A stretch of DNA of 64,000 nucleotides, taken from Longimicrobiales bacterium (lineage in GTDB: Bacteria; Gemmatimonadota; Gemmatimonadetes; Longimicrobiales; Gaopeijiaceae). The position numbers and the translations under genes were made by a program. The stretch spans positions 186,001 through 250,000 of the forward strand of contig JAQWPM010000021.1 of the NCBI GenBank assembly GCA_029245345.1. The letters run 5' to 3'. The notes beneath the pieces were generated by a model. It was given only the letters and a program-made list of their open reading frames with translations, did not search any database and was not told where the DNA came from. Below, piece by piece: positions 43,061-53,340 of the stretch (within the stretch, counting starts at the first letter, position 1; each line of letters opens with the position of its first letter).

Positions 43061-43556
43061 CCATCCACGGCTCACGCCACGTCGCTGTCGCACGACATCT
43101 CTCCTCGTGGTCCTCGCAGTAATCCCGGCGCTCTCGGCCTGCACCCTACAAAAGTGGCCGGTAGACGCACCGATGACATCACCGTTCGGACTGCGGCTCC
43201 TGGGGTGGAAGCCAGACCTACACAGAGGCGTTGATCTGGATGTGCCCACCGGCACCGAAATCATGGCGATGACCGACGGCAGGGTCCGGTACGCCCGCGC
43301 CATGTCTGGTTATGGCAACGTCATCTGGCTGGAGCACTCCGGCGACGTCCTGACCCTCTACGCACACCTATCGAGCATCCAGGTCACCGAAGGAGCGTCC
43401 GTAACCGGCGGGGACATCATCGGCCTGAGCGGGGCCAGCGGGGATGTGACAGGACCCCATCTCCACTTCGAAGTGTGGAGACGGGGTCGCCAAGTCGATC
43501 CGGTACCCCTACTTGGGGGACCGCCCGGGTCGTTGAGGTTCGAAGCCGCTCGCTAG
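43017..43556 (+). CDS. M23-family peptidoglycan endopeptidase, probable lipoprotein
   Basis: The 179-residue protein keeps all zinc ligands of the LytM family: HRGVDLD, the His of YAHLSS and GPHLHFEV. It is therefore expected to cleave peptide cross-bridges in peptidoglycan, unlike the EnvC-like protein at 20.2 kb. A hydrophobic segment ending ALSAC (VLAVIPALSAC) suggests a lipoprotein signal with an unusually long Arg-rich n-region, so the true start may be a later GTG. Its ATG lies 44 bases inside moeA. The stop TAG shares the sequence CTAG with the stop of the converging etfA. Confidence 0.85.
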   Translation: MRPRVGRLRPVQRPSHPRLTPRRCRTTSLLVVLAVIPALSACTLQKWPVDAPMTSPFGLRLLGWKPDLHRGVDLDVPTGTEIMAMTDGRVRYARAMSGYGNVIWLEHSGDVLTLYAHLSSIQVTEGASVTGGDIIGLSGASGDVTGPHLHFEVWRRGRQVDPVPLLGGPPGSLRFEAAR

Positions 43557-44542
43557 TCGTCAGCCTTTAGAGCAGCGATCTCCGCCGTCAGCTTCGGCAC
43601 GATCTCGAAGAGATCACCCACGATTCCGTAGTCTGCCACCCCGAAGATGGGCGCATCCGCGTCCTTGTTGACCGCCACGATCGTCTGAGACGTCCGCATT
43701 CCCGCCAGATGCTGAATGGCACCCGAGATCCCGATGGCGAAGTAGAGCTTCGGGGCCACGGTCTTTCCCGTCTGCCCCACCTGCTCTCCGTGAGGGCGCC
43801 ACCCAGCGTCGACAACAGCACGAGAGGCTCCTAACGCCACACCTGGCCCCAAAGCGTCCCTGAGGCCCTCTAAGAGCCCCCAGTGCTCGGGGTTTCTCAT
43901 GCCACGACCTCCCGACACCACGACCGAGGCCGCTCCAACGTCGGTCGCGCCATCTCCTGCACTGCGACGTTCCACAACCCGAAGGCCGGACGTCGACAAA
44001 TCTACCGCGGGCGTAGTCACGACGACTGCCCCAGGAGCTTCTCGCCCCTCTGGTGAAAACACGTTGGGCCGGATCGTCACCAACGCCGGCACCGCATCTA
44101 GGGATACGGTGGCGAAGGCTTTTCCGGCGTAGACCGGCCTCACGACACTGATGAGCCCGTCATGCACTTGGATGGCAGTGGCGTCCGACGCCAAAGGTAC
44201 GTCGAGAAGAGCAGCCACACGCGGGGCAATATCTTTGCCCATGGTCGTCGCCGGCATGATGACCGCCGCGAACTCTGCACTCCTGATGTGATCAGCGATC
44301 ACGGTAGCGTACGCCTCTGGATGGTAGTCGGTGAGCGACTCATGCTCTGCCACCGTCACTGTCGAGGCACCCACCATACCGAGGGCCTCGGCCCCGGCCG
44401 ACACGCCCGGACCGCCAAGCACCAATGCATGCGCCAAACCGCCGACCTGGTCGGCCAAACCCGCTGCTGTAGCGACTGCTTCACGAGCCGCTCCAGCAAT
44501 ACTTCCATCTTTCAGTTCTGCGAAGGCCAGGACGTCGGCCAT
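43553..44542 (-). CDS. etfA: Electron transfer flavoprotein alpha subunit
   Basis: EtfA carries FAD and passes electrons from acyl-CoA and other dehydrogenases to the membrane quinone pool. The 329-residue protein has the C-terminal FAD-binding signature: LGASRAVVDAGW, then QVGQTGKTVAPKLYFAIGISGAIQH and NKDADAPIFGVADYGIVGD (parts quoted). The N-terminal domain pairs with EtfB. It follows etfB by 46 bases. The ETF dehydrogenase is not in this window. The gene pair suggests fatty-acid or amino-acid oxidation. Confidence 0.96.
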   Translation of the reverse strand: MADVLAFAELKDGSIAGAAREAVATAAGLADQVGGLAHALVLGGPGVSAGAEALGMVGASTVTVAEHESLTDYHPEAYATVIADHIRSAEFAAVIMPATTMGKDIAPRVAALLDVPLASDATAIQVHDGLISVVRPVYAGKAFATVSLDAVPALVTIRPNVFSPEGREAPGAVVVTTPAVDLSTSGLRVVERRSAGDGATDVGAASVVVSGGRGMRNPEHWGLLEGLRDALGPGVALGASRAVVDAGWRPHGEQVGQTGKTVAPKLYFAIGISGAIQHLAGMRTSQTIVAVNKDADAPIFGVADYGIVGDLFEIVPKLTAEIAALKADD

Positions 44543-44588
44543 GGGATCTACTCCAGATTCTGTGATTGTATTTGTGGGGTGGATTGCT

Positions 44589-45338
44589 CTAGAGCGCGTT
44601 CGCTTCTTCGCGCAGAAGACGCACCAACTCCGGAACCGCGTCAGGGCCTTCGCCTACGATCCGACCTTCGGGCCGTGTCGGGGGCTCAGTCAACTTCGTG
44701 ACCCTCAGCCGGGAGTCGACCAGTGCGGCATCCTTCTGTTCAAGCGGCTTCCGCTTGGCAGCCATGATTCCCTTGAGCGACGCATAACGCGGCTCAAACT
44801 CGCCTTTCGTAATGGTGACGACAGCGGGCAGTCGGGCTTCGACCACTTCAACGCCACCTTCGACCTCGCGATGGCACGTCACAACCCCGTCACCAATCTC
44901 GAAGGAGGAGACTCCGGTCACTGTGGGGCGCCTCAGCAGCGTGCCGAGCATCGGGCCAACCTGTTGCTGGTCATCGTCCGCAGCTTTGACCCCAAGGAGC
45001 ACCAGTGGCGCGTCTGCGCCCTCTAGTTCGGCTGCGAGCACCTTTGCGGTAGCTAGGCCGTCCGCCGTTGGTTGCCCCTTAAGTAAGACTGCGGCATCGG
45101 CACCAATGGCGAGCCCCGCGCGCAACGTCTCCTGCGTGGCAACGTCTCCGAACGAGACAAGCTTCACCTCTCCCTCCCCGGCTGCTTCCTTTGCACGCAA
45201 AGCGGCCTCGATAGCGAACTCGTCGTACGGGCTGACGATGAATTTGACCCCGGTCGGGTCGATGTCGATGCCAGATTCACCGGTCCGAATGCGGGTCTCG
45301 GTATCGGGCACACGTTTCACACAAACGATGACGTTCAA
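44589..45338 (-). CDS. etfB: Electron transfer flavoprotein beta subunit
   Basis: The 249-residue EtfB opens with IVCVKRVPDTET and contains the conserved SPYDEFAIEAALRAKE segment. LLKGQPTADGLATAKVLAAEL follows at the AMP site, and the C-terminal LPAVVTITKGEFEPRYASLKGIMAAKRKP contains the recognition loop (parts quoted). It starts at TTG 45338 with GGAG seven bases upstream. A perfect inverted repeat lies 21 bases upstream in its likely leader. It forms a heterodimer with EtfA, encoded next. Confidence 0.95.
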   Translation of the reverse strand: MNVIVCVKRVPDTETRIRTGESGIDIDPTGVKFIVSPYDEFAIEAALRAKEAAGEGEVKLVSFGDVATQETLRAGLAIGADAAVLLKGQPTADGLATAKVLAAELEGADAPLVLLGVKAADDDQQQVGPMLGTLLRRPTVTGVSSFEIGDGVVTCHREVEGGVEVVEARLPAVVTITKGEFEPRYASLKGIMAAKRKPLEQKDAALVDSRLRVTKLTEPPTRPEGRIVGEGPDAVPELVRLLREEANAL

Positions 45339-45358
45339 CTGTCACTCCGGGTTGGTCC

Positions 45359-45377
45359 GGGGCGACAAGGTCGCCCC
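45359..45377 (-). promoter_or_regulatory. Perfect dyad upstream of etfB
   Basis: GGGGCGA and TCGCCCC are separated by CAAGG, giving a 7-base-pair stem just ahead of the etfB ribosome site. It may be an operator or an mRNA structure in the leader. No T run follows, so it is not an intrinsic terminator. Confidence 0.3.
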
Positions 45378-45443
45378 ATCATACTCAGACTCGGACCCGC
45401 ACGGCGTAGGTGCCAGGCCCCTGCTAAATATTGCGAATTCGGA

Positions 45444-46856
45444 CTAAAGCGTCGCCCCCAAAATACCAAACATTATCGACGCAATCGCCCCACCTATCAA
45501 AGCGTACGGAAGTTGCGTTCGCACGTGATCGATATGGTCTGTCGCCGCAGCCATCGATGAGATGATCGTGGTGTCGCTGATCGGCGAGCAATGATCTCCG
45601 AAGATCCCGCCGGCGAGCGATGCGGCAACGAACGGAGCCAGAGGAAGGCCGAGCGTCATGGCGGCAGGCACCGCGATCGGAAGCATGATGGCGAAGGTGC
45701 CCCAGCTCGTTCCCGTCGAGAAGGCAATCCCTCCGGACACTAAGAACACGAGGGGGAGATAGATGAAGTTCGGCATGGTCCCGGCCGTCACCTGGGCCAC
45801 ATAGACTCCGGTCCCCAATGCCTCGATCACGTTTCCGAGGGCCAGGGCCAGCAAGAGGATGAGCGCGAGAGGCACCAAGCCGCCCGCCCCACGGAGAGCG
45901 ACTTTGACCAAGCCATCTATCTTGAAGGCGCCTTGGCTGAGAAGCAGAGCCCAGGACACGGCCAGGCCGAAGAGTACGGACCACAAAACGCTCGTCGAAC
46001 CCGACCCGTCCGTGAACACTCCGTTCCCGGTGACGAACAGTCCTACCGGCATGAACAGCACCATGGCCGCGATCGGGGCGATCATGTTGATCGCACGCGG
46101 TTTGATGTGGTCGTTGGGCTCCGGTGAAAGAACGTCTTCGTCGATCATCGGCGTCGCGTCCGGCCAGAGCACCTCGCCACCGCGCGTCCGTTCCTCTGCC
46201 TTCTTCATGGGGCCGATATCGAGTCCGAACATGATCACCACGAGGACGAGCAGAACCGCAGCGATCGCATAGAAGTTGAACAGAATCGACTGAAGAAACA
46301 CGGTGAGAGGGTTCTCGACGCCGAGGCTCTCGAGGATGCCGAGGTTATACGCACCCCAGGCATTCATCGGAATCAAAATGCAGATCGGCGCAGACGTGGA
46401 GTCGATGATGTACGCCAGCTTCTCCCGAGAGACCTTGTACCGATCACACAGCGGTCGGGCCACGGAGCCTGCAACTAGGACAGTGATGTTCGATTCGATG
46501 AAGATCACGACCCCAGTGGCCCACGCGAGCAGCTGTGACTTCTTTGCCGAATCCACCCACTTGTTGCTTTCCAGATAGTTCACAAAGCCTCGGACGCCCC
46601 CGGACGCCTCGACCGTAGCGATCATGGCCCCGATGACTAAGGTGAACAAAATGGCCTTCGTGTCGCCATCGTTTCCAAAAACGGCAACGGTCCCCTGGAT
46701 CGTGTCGCCCAGCCCCTGAATAGGGTTCCATCCAGCGAGAATGGTCCACGCGAGCCACAAGCCGCCGGCGAGCGACATGTAGACCTGCTTGGACCAAATC
46801 GCCAAAAAGATGGCGAGCACAGGAGGGAGCAGTGAGATCCAGGTCGGATCAGTCAT
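45444..46856 (-). CDS. NhaC-family Na+/H+ antiporter
   Basis: The 470-residue membrane protein has about twelve predicted helices and the NhaC-type conserved features. Among them are NKWVDSAKKSQLLAW, STSAPICILIPMNAWG, and the GIAFSTGTSWGTFAIMLPIA region with the ion-site Thr/Ser run. The end shows AASLAGGIFGDHCSPISDTTI, the strongest family signature. It exchanges sodium for protons or an amino-acid-linked ion across the inner membrane, which suits a saline habitat. It stands alone between etfB and a decayed glycosylase gene. Confidence 0.92.
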   Translation of the reverse strand: MTDPTWISLLPPVLAIFLAIWSKQVYMSLAGGLWLAWTILAGWNPIQGLGDTIQGTVAVFGNDGDTKAILFTLVIGAMIATVEASGGVRGFVNYLESNKWVDSAKKSQLLAWATGVVIFIESNITVLVAGSVARPLCDRYKVSREKLAYIIDSTSAPICILIPMNAWGAYNLGILESLGVENPLTVFLQSILFNFYAIAAVLLVLVVIMFGLDIGPMKKAEERTRGGEVLWPDATPMIDEDVLSPEPNDHIKPRAINMIAPIAAMVLFMPVGLFVTGNGVFTDGSGSTSVLWSVLFGLAVSWALLLSQGAFKIDGLVKVALRGAGGLVPLALILLLALALGNVIEALGTGVYVAQVTAGTMPNFIYLPLVFLVSGGIAFSTGTSWGTFAIMLPIAVPAAMTLGLPLAPFVAASLAGGIFGDHCSPISDTTIISSMAAATDHIDHVRTQLPYALIGGAIASIMFGILGATL

Positions 46857-46897
46857 GCGGGCAGTCCTCTTTCGTGAAGTTCATACCATACGAGCCG

Positions 46898-47390
46898 TCA
46901 GCGGCTAGAAACCCCGGCCGAGCCTCGAACATAGAACCGATTCGGCCAGTCCGCTGCTGCGGACACTCCGATCCGCACCAATACTAGAATCAAATCATCA
47001 GGCACCTCCCAACCGCGGAGCAGCCCTAGTGGAGGTTGGGTTGGGTTGGGCGGGGTCAGGTCATGTCCGTAGAGCGCAGCGCTGGTCCCCACCGCCTCAC
47101 CCACTCACCCACAGCCCCGCGACCGAGTGGAACCCGGTTGTGCCGACGTTCGCGCATGTATTCCAAGCCGCTGAGCGGCTCTAAGCAGGGTCGTTACGGC
47201 CTGCGTATGCCTCTACCTCAACAATGACCCCGGAACCCGACTGTCCATCTGCGGAAGAACGCAACCTACAGCCGAGAACCCCCGCGCAGCTTCGAGCCAG
47301 GGGCGCTCGCAATCGGCTCGCGCAACGACAACCGTCTGTCGGGCTCTCCGCCAGCCAGGGGAGGTCGCTCACGACGAGTGAAATCGTCCG
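46898..47390 (-). pseudogene. Decayed DNA-3-methyladenine glycosylase (Mpg/AAG)
   Basis: Fragments of one gene appear in order along the minus strand. The front end reads VLGCRLRSSADGQSGSGVIVEVEAYAGRNDPA at about 47280-47182 (quoted in parts: LGCRL, SGVIVEVEAYAG). This matches the N-terminal active-site region of AAG enzymes, and a stop follows immediately. About 80 bases on, another frame gives ALYGHDLTPP and then RIGVSAAADWPNRFYVRGS with SSR at the end, the family C-terminus. The roughly 70-100 residues expected between the parts are absent or scrambled. Extra frame changes lie near 47270-47400. I read it as a non-functional relic lying directly behind the NYN gene. Confidence 0.75.
47038..47055 (+). 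other. Four-tract G-quadruplex motif
   Basis: The plus strand reads GGGTTGGGTTGGGCGGGG, four G runs with loops of 2, 2 and 1 bases. It lies within the glycosylase relic. Such short loops favour a stable quadruplex, but a role here is unknown. Confidence 0.6.
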
Positions 47391-47396
47391 TGCGAA

Positions 47397-49235
47397 CTAG
47401 CTCGGACCCTTGGCCCTTCCAGCGCGTCGTTCGTAGTCCGACGCCCACGCCTCGAGAACCTGCTCCGCACGGTTCGCAGGCACGGCACTCGAGATCGCCT
47501 TCGGATCGTCCCGAAGCGTCCGGAAGATGTCCGAACCGAAACGCTCGACAAGCGTCTCGGCAGTCTTCTCGCCAACGCCCTTGTACCTATGCGTCATGTA
47601 TCGGACGATGGCCGGCGGATCACTGGGCAACCCAAGAGTGCTGAGGTCCACGTCATCGTTCGACGAAGGCGCTTCGGCCTCTTTGACGTCAGGCTCGTGG
47701 GGGCGTGTTTCCGCAACCGGAGTCTCGGCGACACTCGGCTGGCTCGACGTGACTTCCGGCTCAACCGGCTGCTTCACCGTCGCCGACGGCTCATCCTTTA
47801 CGGCGCCCGCGTCAGACGCTGCAGAGGCACTAGAGCTGCTCGCAACGCCAACGACCTGTCCCTCGAACAGCGGCGGTGCGTCGTCATGCGACCGCCGACG
47901 CGTCGACCCGCCACGACGTCCATAGCTTCGCCCCCGACCGGATGGCGACGGAGCAATTTCGACCACGGTCGACTCCTGGGACACCGGAGCGTCCTCAGGG
48001 ATGGAGGACTCCGGAGCAACTGCGTCCTCAGCCGATGTCGCTCCTTCCGCCTCCGGCTCGTCGATGGTGGCACCACCTTCACTCCTCCACACTTCATAGT
48101 TTCCACGATCCGTGCGCTCGGCGTCGATCACGCCATGGTCCATCGCCTGGACCAAGAATTTGCTGAACTTCGGGAAGCCCAATTCGGCCTCATCGAAGCC
48201 GGGAGACAAAGCGAGCATCTTACGCTTCACGTCAGAGTCACGGACGCGATCACGTCCGGCCTCTTTAAACTGGGTCAAGGCAGCGGTCAGGACTCCATAA
48301 GCGGCCTTGAGCGGATCGTCGGCAGTTTCCTGGACACTTTCAGACGCATCCCCGACTGCGGGAGCTGCATCCGTGCGTGGGCCGCGATCACGCCGCCCGC
48401 GACCGCGATCACTTCGGCCACCACGGCCTCGACTTTCGCTCGAGGGGCTTCGACGCCCCCTCCCTTTTCCGGGGCCAACCTCATACTGGCCATTCTCAAG
48501 TTTTTTGAGAACGACTAGGCCCCGTGAAGACGCCTCAGCCAAGAACTTAGAGAACTTGCTGAACCCGATGGATGCTTCATCAAAATTCGCATCGAGCTCC
48601 TGCAGAACCTGCTTCAAGCGATCGGATCGCATCACGTCGCCACGCGCGACCATCTTCTTGAGAGACTCACTGACGAGCACCCACGGATCGCGTCCGGCTT
48701 GTGTGAGTTCGGTGGTCTTCGTCAGACCGGTCAGGCTCGTGTACGAGTAATACTCGTCACAGTTCTGGACGAGGATGTCGGAACTGGACTCCTGAATGCC
48801 CACCCCGATGACGTACTTCCCGTACTCCTTGAGCTTGAGCACCAAGCTGGAGAAGTCGGAATCACCGGTGAGAAGAATGTAGGTCCCGATCTCGGGTCGA
48901 ACGAAGACGAGTTCCATGCCGTCGATCGCCATCCTGATGTCGGTCGCGTTCTTCTTGCTGCTGCCATAGGCGGGAGCAAAAATCAGGTCGACGGACGCCT
49001 CGGAGAGCGGCACGATGTACTGGGGGTAGCGACGCCAATCGGCATAGGCGCGTTGAACGCTGACCTTACCCTTGATGACATCGGAGCTCAGGAGCGTCTT
49101 GAGCTCCTTTGAAAGATCGCTCCGCATTCCCATCGTGACGTTGTCGAAATCGATGAGCAGAGCGGCGTGGGGCGACTCGTGACCCACAACTGCCCCCCCC
49201 ACCTGATGGGGGGCTTTGACATACGGTAAATCCAT
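47397..49235 (-). CDS. NYN-domain putative ribonuclease with two OST-HTH/LOTUS domains and C-terminal HhH
   Basis: The 612-residue protein starts with a NYN (PIN-like) nuclease domain at about residues 24-165. It carries the acidic site IDFDN (D29, D31), ATDIRMAI (D99) and LLTGDSDFSSL (D125, D127). Two OST-HTH/LOTUS domains follow at about 183-253 and 308-383, each with the FSKFSKFL or FPKFSKFL core. An Arg/Gly-rich linker separates them. A long acidic, Ser/Pro-rich region (about 385-535) leads to a C-terminal helix-hairpin-helix (HRYKGVGEKTAETLVERFG). It should bind and perhaps cut RNA. The start ATG has AGGAA upstream. A run of eight G lies about 45 bases inside the gene. Confidence 0.85.
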   Translation of the reverse strand: MDLPYVKAPHQVGGAVVGHESPHAALLIDFDNVTMGMRSDLSKELKTLLSSDVIKGKVSVQRAYADWRRYPQYIVPLSEASVDLIFAPAYGSSKKNATDIRMAIDGMELVFVRPEIGTYILLTGDSDFSSLVLKLKEYGKYVIGVGIQESSSDILVQNCDEYYSYTSLTGLTKTTELTQAGRDPWVLVSESLKKMVARGDVMRSDRLKQVLQELDANFDEASIGFSKFSKFLAEASSRGLVVLKKLENGQYEVGPGKGRGRRSPSSESRGRGGRSDRGRGRRDRGPRTDAAPAVGDASESVQETADDPLKAAYGVLTAALTQFKEAGRDRVRDSDVKRKMLALSPGFDEAELGFPKFSKFLVQAMDHGVIDAERTDRGNYEVWRSEGGATIDEPEAEGATSAEDAVAPESSIPEDAPVSQESTVVEIAPSPSGRGRSYGRRGGSTRRRSHDDAPPLFEGQVVGVASSSSASAASDAGAVKDEPSATVKQPVEPEVTSSQPSVAETPVAETRPHEPDVKEAEAPSSNDDVDLSTLGLPSDPPAIVRYMTHRYKGVGEKTAETLVERFGSDIFRTLRDDPKAISSAVPANRAEQVLEAWASDYERRAGRAKGPS

Positions 49236-49349
49236 GTTCCTGTTCTCGCAGACTAAATTGTCATGCCGCGAGACCTCCCCACCTCACTCGATCACGAGTA
49301 GGTCGGGGAAGCCTGTCGGGAGCACCCACAACGGATGCCGCGACCCCAG

Positions 49350-50945
49350 TCAGGCCGATGGACTCTCCGAATGAACCACACGGGAGAGTTCGACCCGCCG
49401 CACCTTACCGGTATCCGTTCGTGGAAGAGCGTCGAGGAAGCGAACCGAGTCGGGAACCTTGTCCTCCGCGAGAGTTTCGCGGCACCAGTCCACAATCTCA
49501 TGGCCCGTCACGATCGCACCTTCCACCGGAACCACACAGGCGCAGATGGCCTCACCGAGGAGAGCGTCGTTAATCCCGACGACCGCAACCTCTTGTACCG
49601 CCGGATGAGACTCGATTCGAGTCTCTACTTCCCGGGGATACACATTGAAGCCAGATCGGATGATAACGTCCTTCCTACGGCCGACCAAGTGAAGGAAGCC
49701 CTCTTCGTCGCAAATCCCGAGGTCTCCGGTCAAGAAGAAGCCATCATCGTCGAATGCCGCTGCCGTCTCACCAGGCTGCCTATAGTAGCCCAGCATGACC
49801 CCCGGGCCCTTCACTCCGATCTCCCCCACGCTCTCAACGGGAAGCTCACTTCCATCAACTTCGACGATCTTCAACTGGGTCCCTGGGAGTGGAACACCCA
49901 CCGTGAAACGCCTCTTGTCCGGAGGATGGGACGGCGAGGACACCGACACCGTAGATGCGGTCTCCGTGAGGGAATAGGCCGCCAGCACAGTCACTCCAAA
50001 GCTGGCCTCGATGCGCCCAACCAATTCGTCGCTCACGGGCGCCCCGGCCACCACAGCGAGTCGAAGAGTGTGCAGGTCGCGTGGGCGGCTCTCTAGTTGG
50101 CTCATTTCAGCCACAAAGAGCGTCGGGATGCCATAGTGGACAGTAGCCGCATGGACTTCAGCCGCGTCGAGCGTTGCCGTCGCGTCCGACTCTGCCTGAA
50201 GCACAACGCTCGATCCGGACAAGAGCGGCGCCAAGAGGCCTGGGCCCAGGCCGAAAACGTGGAATAGCGCCGACAGTCCAACGATTCGGTCCTCAGGACC
50301 GAGCCCTACCGCGTCGGCCGTCCCGGCGGCCACGGCGATCAAGTTGGCATGGCTCAACTCGACACCCTTTGGTTTCCCCGTCGTCCCAGATGTGTACACG
50401 ATCGCGAAGCAATCTCCAGTGGCGTCAAGCGTCGGAGACGCATAATCACGCCCGGCACCGGCACTGATGAGATCTTCGAACTGGAAAATCCGATCGTCGT
50501 ACCAAAGGTCCTCTTCACCAACGGTAACCAAGTACTGAAGGTCAGGCAGTAGAGGAATGAGGTCTTCAAAAAGCTGCAGATAATCGACGTCGTAGGCTTC
50601 CTCGATCGTGACCGCACACACGGCTTCCGAGTGCCTGAGCATGTACTGAAGCTCGGTGGTGGTCAGCCTCGGGTTGAGGGGCACGATCGTGGCGCCCAGT
50701 TTTGCAGCCGCGAAAAGGGCTATCGCGAACTCAGGGCACGGCGGGAGGATCAGAGCGATCCGATCGCCTCGTTCCACGCCCAAATTTGCGAGAGAAGCCG
50801 CGAGAGCTTCCGCCCGACTCGCGACTTGGCCAAAACTCACGACTTGGTCTCGATAGCGCAGGTATACGCTGCTCGGATCCGATGTCGCCCGGTTCGCGAG
50901 AGCAGCTGCGACCGTGAAGCCCTGGAAGCGCTCGGTGAGCGCCAT
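49350..50945 (-). CDS. AMP-forming acyl-CoA ligase (long/medium-chain fatty acid type)
   Basis: I choose ATG 50945 because a perfect AGGAGGTGA lies just before it, giving 531 residues. Motifs are the phosphate loop [16 protein letters not shown], the acyl-site YSLTETAS, and the hinge FFLTGDLGICDEEGFLHLVGRRKDVI (partly quoted). A C-terminal PRTDTGKVRRVELSR with the catalytic Lys completes it. It activates a carboxylic acid, most likely a fatty acid, to its CoA thioester. With etfAB and acs it fits beta-oxidation. It lies 41 bases after aroB's end, on the same strand. Confidence 0.9.
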   Translation of the reverse strand: MALTERFQGFTVAAALANRATSDPSSVYLRYRDQVVSFGQVASRAEALAASLANLGVERGDRIALILPPCPEFAIALFAAAKLGATIVPLNPRLTTTELQYMLRHSEAVCAVTIEEAYDVDYLQLFEDLIPLLPDLQYLVTVGEEDLWYDDRIFQFEDLISAGAGRDYASPTLDATGDCFAIVYTSGTTGKPKGVELSHANLIAVAAGTADAVGLGPEDRIVGLSALFHVFGLGPGLLAPLLSGSSVVLQAESDATATLDAAEVHAATVHYGIPTLFVAEMSQLESRPRDLHTLRLAVVAGAPVSDELVGRIEASFGVTVLAAYSLTETASTVSVSSPSHPPDKRRFTVGVPLPGTQLKIVEVDGSELPVESVGEIGVKGPGVMLGYYRQPGETAAAFDDDGFFLTGDLGICDEEGFLHLVGRRKDVIIRSGFNVYPREVETRIESHPAVQEVAVVGINDALLGEAICACVVPVEGAIVTGHEIVDWCRETLAEDKVPDSVRFLDALPRTDTGKVRRVELSRVVHSESPSA

Positions 50946-50986
50946 GTCACCTCCTGGAATGACCAGACCTGACAACCGAAGTCCCG

Positions 50987-52105
50987 CTATTGAAGTCCGC
51001 TGAGGACATCCCTGACTGCATCATCCGGGACCTCTCGACTCCACCCATCACCTTCAAGGGTCTCACCTAACCGCCGAAGTAATACGTACCTCGGCCTCCC
51101 CGAGCGAGCCTTCTTATCAGAAAGGAGGTAGGACAGAGCTTTTTCGACGTCTACATGACCGCATGATGAAGCATCGAAACCGAGCGTCGCGAGCGCATTT
51201 CTCAGGCCGCTCTCGGTCCCAGCTTCGGTCACGCCCAACTCTTCACCAAGTTGGGTCTCCAAGAGCATCCCGACGGCGACAGCAGCTCCGTGCCCAAGTT
51301 GGTAGTCCGACGCCGCCTCGATCGCATGACCGAGTGTGTGCCCGAAGTTCAGGATCTGCCGATACCCGCCTTCTAACTCGTCCCGGGTGACCACATCGGC
51401 CTTCAGCCTCACCGAATGGAGGACGGCTCGAGCGGCCACCGCCGGCGCGGCCGCGAGAAGGTCAGGGACGTCTGCAACCAGAGTATCGAGATAGGCCGCA
51501 TCCAAGATCGCCCCATGTTTGAAGGCCTCTACAAGTCCTTGGGCCCTCTCCGATTCGGGCAGCGTGCCCAAAACCGTGGGATCTGCGATGACACACCGGG
51601 GTGAATGGAAGGCACCCACGAGGTTCTTCCCAGCGCGAACATCGAGTCCGGTCTTTCCACCCACAGACGCGTCGATCATCGCCAAATACGACGTGGGCAC
51701 CTGAACCACTGGAATCCCGCGGAGGTAGGTCGCTGCCACGAAGCCCGCGAGATCTCCCGTCACGCCACCACCCACTGCGATCACAACCGTGTCCCTGCCG
51801 TGACCATCGCCGAGGAGTTCGTCGGTCAAGATCGACCAGCTGTTCCGCGTCTTGGACTCCTCGCCAGCTGGGAACGTATAGATCGCGGCGTCATACCCGG
51901 CCGACATGCAGGCCGACATCACACGCTGACCATACAACGGCGCGACCGTGTGGTCCGAAATGATGGCGTAGCGGTGGGCCTCCGCGTGCGTAGCGAGATA
52001 GCCGGCGATGCCGTCTAGCCCGCCGCAGCCCACATAGACCGGGTACTCACCGGCAGAGGAGCCCACCGTAACTCGGCTGACCGCCTCCCGCTCCACCGAG
52101 GTCAT
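50987..52105 (-). CDS. aroB: 3-dehydroquinate synthase
   Basis: AroB makes 3-dehydroquinate from DAHP, step two of the shikimate pathway. The 372-residue protein has the NAD site VIAVGGGVTGDLAGFVAATYLRG (partly quoted) and SVGGKTGLD. The metal ligands lie in EAFKHG, NFGHTLGHAIE and a later His in QLGHGAAVAVGM. All catalytic regions are intact and the length is normal. Its start ATG overlaps the stop of the metallopeptidase lipoprotein gene (ATGA), so the two are translated together, an unusual partner for aroB. Confidence 0.96.
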   Translation of the reverse strand: MTSVEREAVSRVTVGSSAGEYPVYVGCGGLDGIAGYLATHAEAHRYAIISDHTVAPLYGQRVMSACMSAGYDAAIYTFPAGEESKTRNSWSILTDELLGDGHGRDTVVIAVGGGVTGDLAGFVAATYLRGIPVVQVPTSYLAMIDASVGGKTGLDVRAGKNLVGAFHSPRCVIADPTVLGTLPESERAQGLVEAFKHGAILDAAYLDTLVADVPDLLAAAPAVAARAVLHSVRLKADVVTRDELEGGYRQILNFGHTLGHAIEAASDYQLGHGAAVAVGMLLETQLGEELGVTEAGTESGLRNALATLGFDASSCGHVDVEKALSYLLSDKKARSGRPRYVLLRRLGETLEGDGWSREVPDDAVRDVLSGLQ

Positions 52106-53340
52106 GGCTGATTCGTAATTGAGACCGCCGTCGTTATTCCTCCTTGACCCCCCACCCGGAGTCGCACCGCGGCCCGGCCTTGAACGTCGATGGAATCAAG
52201 CGTCGCCTCTGCCCCGAAGGCCCCGAGAGCCCCTCTCAATCCGGTGAAAAATCGATCTCGCGACCCGACATCATCCCACACTGCATACCAAACCATGGCC
52301 CTTTCCCCATTGCCGGTCTCGAACATCGCATAGCGATCCCCGCCCCATCCCTGCGCGAGCGAGCTACTGCCCGCCCCGAGATGCTCATCGAGAAGCACCC
52401 CCAACTCCAATCTTCCGAGCACGCCATCGTGCACGACCCGGGAACCCTGAACGGCGACGGCCAACTCCACTGGAACATCGTCCACAGCGCCCGTCAGGAT
52501 CTGTTCGGTGGACTGCGGGAGGTGCTCGCCGAAGGGGGCCACTCGATCTTCACGCATCCAAAGCCCCTGCACGAAGCCGGCGCCCTCCACGTACGGAAAA
52601 AGAAGTGCCTCTTGAATCACTCGCGGAGCACTGGCAAGCGCGGGAAACTGCGCCCGCATGCCCTGAAGCGCCGGTCGCAGTTGGTCTGCGAAGTTCGGAA
52701 GTTGGGACAAGTCAATGGAGGTGCCCTGCATCTGCTCGGTCATGTATTCGAGCATGACCAGGGTCGCGTGCCCTTCAATCGCCGCCTGTGCCGCGGTGGC
52801 GCGGTCGTGTCCAAGATCTGGATCGGTGAGCGCGTCGAGGTCAGCCCATTGATCCTGGACCGCGTGGACGAGTTCGTGGACGAGGAGTCCCTGCAAGGCC
52901 GCCTGAGGCTGATCGTCCATGACGAACAATGCGGTCGAGTCAGGCTCGTAGAAACCGGCCACCTGTTCGGTGTAGAGCGCCAGCAACACTTCTCGCAGAT
53001 CGAGGTCCGCAGATACCAACCCCAATAGGGCGTAAGCATCAACTGTCGCCCGTGCTTCCTCCGGAGGGAGTTCTTCGTCTAGCTTCGACTCCAGGTAGCG
53101 AACGAGCTGCTCGCGAGAGCGCATCTCGAGTCGGACCGGTGCGCGTAGGGACAAACCCGAGCGAGCAGCGAGGTCGGGAAGCAAGGCGGCCGCGAGTTCA
53201 CCGAGTGTGGCGTCAGAAGAAATCACCAGGTCGGAGGACGCCTGTTGGGCCCCTCCCCCACATGCGGTCGAGGCCAACAGCAGCCACGTGCTGAGAAAGA
53301 CGGTCCGAGCGGAAAGCGTGTCAAAAGCAGCAGATTTCAC
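52102..53340 (-). CDS. Lipoprotein with HExxH metallopeptidase motif
   Basis: The 412-residue protein has a lipoprotein signal with the lipidated Cys at residue 27 (LLASTAC). The body contains LLVHELVHAVQDQW (H155, E156, H159) and, about 30 residues later, the Glu-containing AIEGHATLVMLEYM (E189). This spacing fits a gluzincin-type zinc protease. A Thr- or Ser-rich linker is absent. The C-terminal half is beta-rich. No known protein partner is evident, and the substrate is unknown. It is co-translated with aroB. Confidence 0.75.
   Translation of the reverse strand: MKSAAFDTLSARTVFLSTWLLLASTACGGGAQQASSDLVISSDATLGELAAALLPDLAARSGLSLRAPVRLEMRSREQLVRYLESKLDEELPPEEARATVDAYALLGLVSADLDLREVLLALYTEQVAGFYEPDSTALFVMDDQPQAALQGLLVHELVHAVQDQWADLDALTDPDLGHDRATAAQAAIEGHATLVMLEYMTEQMQGTSIDLSQLPNFADQLRPALQGMRAQFPALASAPRVIQEALLFPYVEGAGFVQGLWMREDRVAPFGEHLPQSTEQILTGAVDDVPVELAVAVQGSRVVHDGVLGRLELGVLLDEHLGAGSSSLAQGWGGDRYAMFETGNGERAMVWYAVWDDVGSRDRFFTGLRGALGAFGAEATLDSIDVQGRAAVRLRVGGQGGITTAVSITNQP

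Follow-up and report, generated by a model that had tools for sequence, protein, structure and literature searches.

Bacterial proteins that join an LK-nuclease (DUF88/NYN) domain to a single or duplicated OST-HTH (LOTUS) domain were described by Anantharaman, Zhang and Aravind in 2010 (PMC2848206). Their layout, an N-terminal NYN followed by two OST-HTH domains in a predicted standalone RNase, resembles that of the protein described here. The part of that paper available to us reports no link between these proteins and known RNA-processing systems and mentions fusions to S1/cold-shock and Zn-knuckle domains; a helix-hairpin-helix (HhH) domain, an R/G linker, a leader RNA and Gemmatimonadota do not appear in the same part. 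NYN followed by LOTUS is also found in Arabidopsis DNE1 (cytosol) and MNU1/MNU2 (mitochondria) and in animal MARF1, with two LOTUS domains in DNE1 and MNU. The MARF1 NYN cuts single-stranded RNA and DNE1 sites are flanked by G-rich motifs, whereas, unlike the protein described here, these enzymes are eukaryotic, have decapping or RNase P partners and carry no HhH tail. Binding of G-rich and G4 RNA has been reported for LOTUS domains, bacterial ones included (Ding 2020, cited in PMC12247748). In the searched literature we found no work naming a target for a bacterial LOTUS-NYN protein.

The protein described here is encoded in a window of 64,000 nucleotides, the whole stretch of DNA analysed, from a Longimicrobiales bacterium. 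An intact open reading frame at 47397..49235 (minus strand, as are all features of the gene below) specifies an NYN-LOTUS-LOTUS-HhH protein of 612 aa. The NYN (PIN-like) nuclease domain spans aa 24-164 (48744..49166) and matches Pfam NYN (PF01936) with E 2.7e-24 and 86.8 bits, against a curated cut-off of 24.2. It is followed by a first LOTUS/OST-HTH domain (aa 183-256, 48468..48689), a basic linker rich in R and G (aa 257-304, 48324..48467), a second LOTUS/OST-HTH domain (aa 308-385, 48081..48314), a disordered and mildly acidic region (aa 386-530, 47646..48080) and a C-terminal HhH domain (aa 531-609, 47409..47645). This is the order given in a preliminary description of this DNA, and the analysis confirms it. 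The two OST-HTH domains proposed there were recovered by HMM as two matched stretches (protein E 8.2e-9, 35.6 bits versus a cut-off of 23.8). Scanned singly, each LOTUS domain falls slightly below the Pfam cut-off (22.8 and 20.4 bits, E 8e-5 and 5e-4), and for this reason the folds were tested independently. With an alignment of 43 relatives, AlphaFold predicts both as wHTH folds with pLDDT of ~95-97; the top Foldseek matches of the models in the PDB are the human TDRD7 LOTUS domains (3rco, 2lh9), with the bacterial LOTUS structures 2kpm and 2kzv lower in the same list, and the profiles of the two domains match each other with E 4e-25. NYN and OST-HTH are each detected in 43 of 43 relatives. 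Judged by these profile matches, the protein is a member of the bacterial NYN plus OST-HTH (LK-nuclease) family.

The linker between the LOTUS domains contains 25% R and 19% G in the window protein (family medians 20% and 16%). The number of RG dipeptides varies from 0 to 7 among relatives, which leaves the earlier suggestion of condensation through this linker unsupported, and we rejected it. The second linker has a net charge of -0.12 per residue (family -0.05). It contains a short linear motif, GRRGGSTRRR..PPLFEGQ (aa 439-460, 47856..47921), which recurs as RRGSTRRR..PPLFEGQ in those relatives whose disordered region is long. An N-terminal motif, [YF]xRAPH, is also present, and both motifs look like docking sites.

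Five aspartates of the NYN domain, D29, D66, D99, D125 and D127, are invariant in 73 relatives, in line with the intact acidic site of the preliminary description. The spacing D29-D66-D99-D125 is 37, 33 and 26 residues, compared with 37, 31 and 26 for the four Asp that mouse MARF1 needs (D178, D215, D246, D272; PMC10226599), a fit by spacing only. D99, D105, E108, D125 and D127 align with the acids of Vibrio VPA0982 (PDB 2qip), which shares the NYN fold; that structure is a 165-aa NYN chain of unknown function, with no LOTUS or HhH in the chain. Structure prediction gave confident LOTUS and HhH folds and poor NYN models (pLDDT about 40-70), because the alignment was too shallow for a domain that hardly varies within it, and the acidic pocket of the preliminary description is therefore not visible in them. 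A second NYN fold run was also of low confidence, its match to 2qip being poor (prob 0.77) and ranked under spurious KaiC matches. RNase activity is a sound prediction for this domain.

The gene was found in 186 of 200 genomes of a Gemmatimonadota phylum sample and was absent there from each of the six members of another class and from the two members of one family; by this distribution it belongs to the core genes of one Gemmatimonadota class. A scan across 85,000 species genomes gave 211 relatives, and nearly all of the best 80 of these 211, the set analysed, are labelled Gemmatimonadota, most matching over the full length. Two MAGs labelled Gammaproteobacteria (L051, L055) carry the Gemmatimonadota gene and gene order and are probably mislabelled or misbinned. 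Apparent homologues in another class (f10) were set aside as a different NYN protein with an N-terminal extension and no LOTUS by profile search; loci L125-L128 encode this unrelated protein of ~420 aa, with NYN C-terminal, beside a TrkA-like gene. Among 154 NYN matches in a plasmid search, none reached 80% coverage of the query. A defence role was rejected: no PADLOC family matched at E up to 0.1, and the acyl-CoA ligase, AroB, NhaC and EtfAB neighbours are metabolic.

Class-wide NYN identity to the window protein is 78-94%, measured in genomes not selected by NYN peptides and thus free of the upward bias of the 80-locus set, which was found partly via such peptides. RNase E/G identity in nearly the same genomes is 52-80%. 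At 48 syntenic loci the NYN domain is more conserved than EtfA and EtfB in 48 of 48 (medians 93% versus 58% and 67%); EF-Tu was unusable as a yardstick, its gene being split at contig ends. As far as the searched literature goes, such strict NYN conservation appears to be new. With a NYN domain under so much tighter conservation than RNase E/G, the protein probably has a central place among the RNases of these bacteria. Replacement of RNase E/G by it was rejected, RNase E/G being present in 16 of 18 genomes. The RNase E/G of the window's genome (L133:591-2171, minus strand) has a Gly/Arg-rich insert (KKSGGGGGRGGRRRP) near its N-terminus; RG-rich linkers are found in at least two RNases of that genome.

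A conserved leader RNA lies at the start of the gene (49233..49287; match to model R1 of 58.2 bits). It consists of a G-rich Shine-Dalgarno sequence, GGUGGGGAGG (49274..49283), at a linear distance of 38 nt from the AUG, and a hairpin with a covarying 8-bp stem (49244..49273), which leaves 8 nt to the AUG. Fifty-seven leaders share this order of a GGUGGGGAGG-type Shine-Dalgarno, a hairpin at most 3 bases further on, a short spacer and the AUG, and a G-tract, GGUGGGG, is conserved. RNAalifold recovered the stem unaided. Stem cells are paired in 92% of cases, versus 18-54% in slid-partner controls; double-change cells number 20 versus 6.9 in shuffles (0/500), and changes on both sides occur in 5 of the 8 stem pairs. 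At one stem position 34 of 57 sequences have a G-U pair, which favours an RNA over a DNA palindrome. By minimum free energy the window's full leader does not stand out (z -0.83), and the hairpin alone has a z of -2.47.

A stem of at least 6 bp directly follows the Shine-Dalgarno in 53 of 57 leaders, as compared with 7 in shuffled spacers, and the hairpin reduces the median distance from Shine-Dalgarno to AUG from 41 nt (linear) to 9 nt (effective). In terms of sequence and predicted pairing, these 53 leaders are structure-bridged Shine-Dalgarno elements of the T4 gene 38/25 type with an effective spacing of 9 nt. In T4 genes 38 and 25, bridging of a distant Shine-Dalgarno by a hairpin between it and the AUG is proven (22 to 5 nt and 27 to 11 nt; PMC3014915). 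The E. coli rne 5' UTR, through which RNase E feeds back on its own gene (PMC10989929), is likewise a leader structure before an RNase gene, the RNase being a predicted one in our case. Sequence and layout of the rne and T4 leaders are unrelated to those of the leader described here, for which feedback is a proposal.

The covariance model was run over 198 genomes of the class under strict filters, with which weak second copies may be missed. The window's own genome gave one match (E 1.4e-10). All 23 checkable matches with E < 1e-3 lie at the start of a NYN-LOTUS gene, a near-exclusive location, and 39 of the 198 genomes match at E 0.05 or better. No Rfam family was matched at the gathering threshold or at E up to 1. 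To the extent of the searched literature, the leader RNA would be new. Most of its occurrences are in family f1; f2 has a likely form (L094), and a clade of ~20 loci (L056-L081) is mostly without it. In several sequences of that clade the end of the upstream gene lies near the start codon, and coupling to the upstream gene may replace the leader. Most loci in L056-L081 are also without most of the disordered region, with 7-15 aa compared to ~100 (41-54 in L075 and L078). Loss of the one mostly goes with loss of the other, an exception being L065, in which the linker is short and the leader is kept.

The preliminary description had pointed to a G-quadruplex motif right behind the gene. This motif (47038-47055) is 342 nt past the stop and on the plus strand, and is therefore C-rich in the NYN-LOTUS mRNA. 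It lies inside a pseudogene, and the window holds 5 such motifs against 8.1 expected from mononucleotide shuffling; we rejected it as a functional element and attribute it to chance. The relevant G-rich element is upstream, in the leader.

In the mechanism we propose, the N-terminal NYN would cut single-stranded RNA via its metal-binding Asp set, and the two LOTUS domains, together with the basic R/G-rich linker, would select G-rich or structured RNA. In its own mRNA, the hairpin would bring the G-rich Shine-Dalgarno to ~9 nt from the AUG. The protein would most likely feed back on this leader by binding its G-rich part, by cutting the hairpin loop, or both; a cut in the loop would separate the Shine-Dalgarno from the start codon. 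Combined, the T4 bridging, the RNase E feedback and the reported binding of G-rich RNA by LOTUS domains point to leader feedback as the most economical reading. Its full form, with LOTUS binding to the G-rich Shine-Dalgarno and NYN cutting of the bridging hairpin controlling the protein's own synthesis, is put forward tentatively, as a possibility that we consider less likely than not. Given the mostly leaderless clade of ~20 loci and the 39 matching genomes of 198, feedback would, if it exists, be limited to part of the class.

A purely translational role comes close to feedback in likelihood and retains a substantial minority of our confidence. Here the hairpin would serve only to bring a distant Shine-Dalgarno to a working distance, and the protein would not act there. 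The shrinkage of the median spacing from 41 to 9 nt and the precedents of T4 genes 38 and 25 (PMC3014915) fit such a role, and a single copy per genome suits any cis element. The conserved GGUGGGG, however, exceeds what a Shine-Dalgarno needs, and there is no obvious reason why the NYN-LOTUS gene alone should keep such a layout. All checkable strong matches, moreover, are at a gene for a predicted RNase, and leader feedback is a known feature of RNase genes (rne; PMC10989929).

By Pfam the HhH tail is marginal (HHH_5, E 0.046), and 32 of 32 relatives match the RecD2 N-terminal region; its profile also matches the XPF (HhH)2 in the PDB, and its fold is predicted with pLDDT of ~97. It resembles RecD2 and the XPF C-terminus in sequence profile and helical layout, and differs in having neither a helicase nor an XPF nuclease domain. 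The RecD2 helicase model TIGR01448 is matched with 23.7 bits, against 500, and only over profile positions 68-137. The first hairpin is canonical (YKGVGEKTAE), with an invariant GxG (G553, G555). The second is degenerate: in all sampled relatives it has no GxG, which a tandem (HhH)2 would show twice, and in its place is a helix, the last of the domain, in which R, W, D and R are invariant. GTDB families f1, f2, f3, f7 and f9 have the HhH; f4, f5 and f6 are without it; their second LOTUS is present but matches weakly, and the protein often has a lysine-rich end. In three f5 loci (L090, L099, L100) a histone-H1-like tail rich in lysine and alanine forms the C-terminus and may serve instead of the HhH as a nucleic-acid contact. 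A tree of NYN and the first LOTUS explains the HhH trait by one change (support 91/92). Of the unusual architecture claimed in the preliminary description, the lineage-restricted HhH tail is what stands; NYN with two LOTUS domains has been known from bacteria since 2010 and is shared by Arabidopsis DNE1 and MNU1/2. Within the literature searched, the HhH fusion appears to be new as a conserved trait of the class.

The RecD2 and XPF matches would also suit a DNA-associated nuclease, in which the HhH holds DNA while NYN-LOTUS clears away nascent RNA or the RNA of R-loops, or has a part in repair; we regard this as unlikely. RecD2 was not found in any of nine class members tested, seven of which carry the NYN-LOTUS family, and a 3-methyladenine DNA glycosylase gene (MPG) follows NYN-LOTUS in 84 loci. 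Relatives share the gene order lipoprotein, AroB, acyl-CoA ligase, NYN-LOTUS, MPG, NhaC, EtfB and EtfA, which in the window occupies 43553-53340, all on the minus strand. Yet in the window MPG (46907-47312, minus strand) is the pseudogene mentioned above, with in-frame stops and its middle missing, beside an intact NYN-LOTUS gene, and a functional MPG partnership was accordingly rejected. MPG is intact at the same place in most relatives, and no other copy was found in the window's own genome. The HhH is missing, moreover, in 3 of 8 GTDB families carrying the gene, and the degeneracy of its second hairpin is a further argument against this reading. RNase HII is present in 7 of 7 carriers tested, and RNase HI too, so there is no R-loop gap to fill. 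A non-catalytic, LabA-like RNA-binding regulator, its NYN fold kept to bind and not to cut, is quite improbable: NYN activity is a prediction and the LabA-type model TIGR00288 is weakly matched, but its 34.3 bits are far from the equivalog cut-off of 178.45 and every candidate catalytic acid is invariant in the 73 relatives.

The best reading is still a standalone RNase with probable feedback on its own leader. In lineages that keep it, the HhH tail would add a backbone-type nucleic-acid contact or a partner contact. As a whole, the reading of a class-wide housekeeping endoribonuclease for G-rich or structured RNA, feeding back on its own leader, has in our estimate an even chance of being right. 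The prediction that bacterial LOTUS-NYN proteins are RNases dates from 2010, and the leader is a first concrete lead to what such enzymes may act on. It is a defined candidate substrate that is simple to make; with it, recognition by bacterial LOTUS domains becomes directly testable, which bears on the proposal that the germ-granule and plant decay enzymes of the NYN-LOTUS family have a bacterial origin. Autoregulation, if true, would constitute a new RNA switch and, within the searched literature, would give a bacterial LOTUS-NYN enzyme its first identified target.
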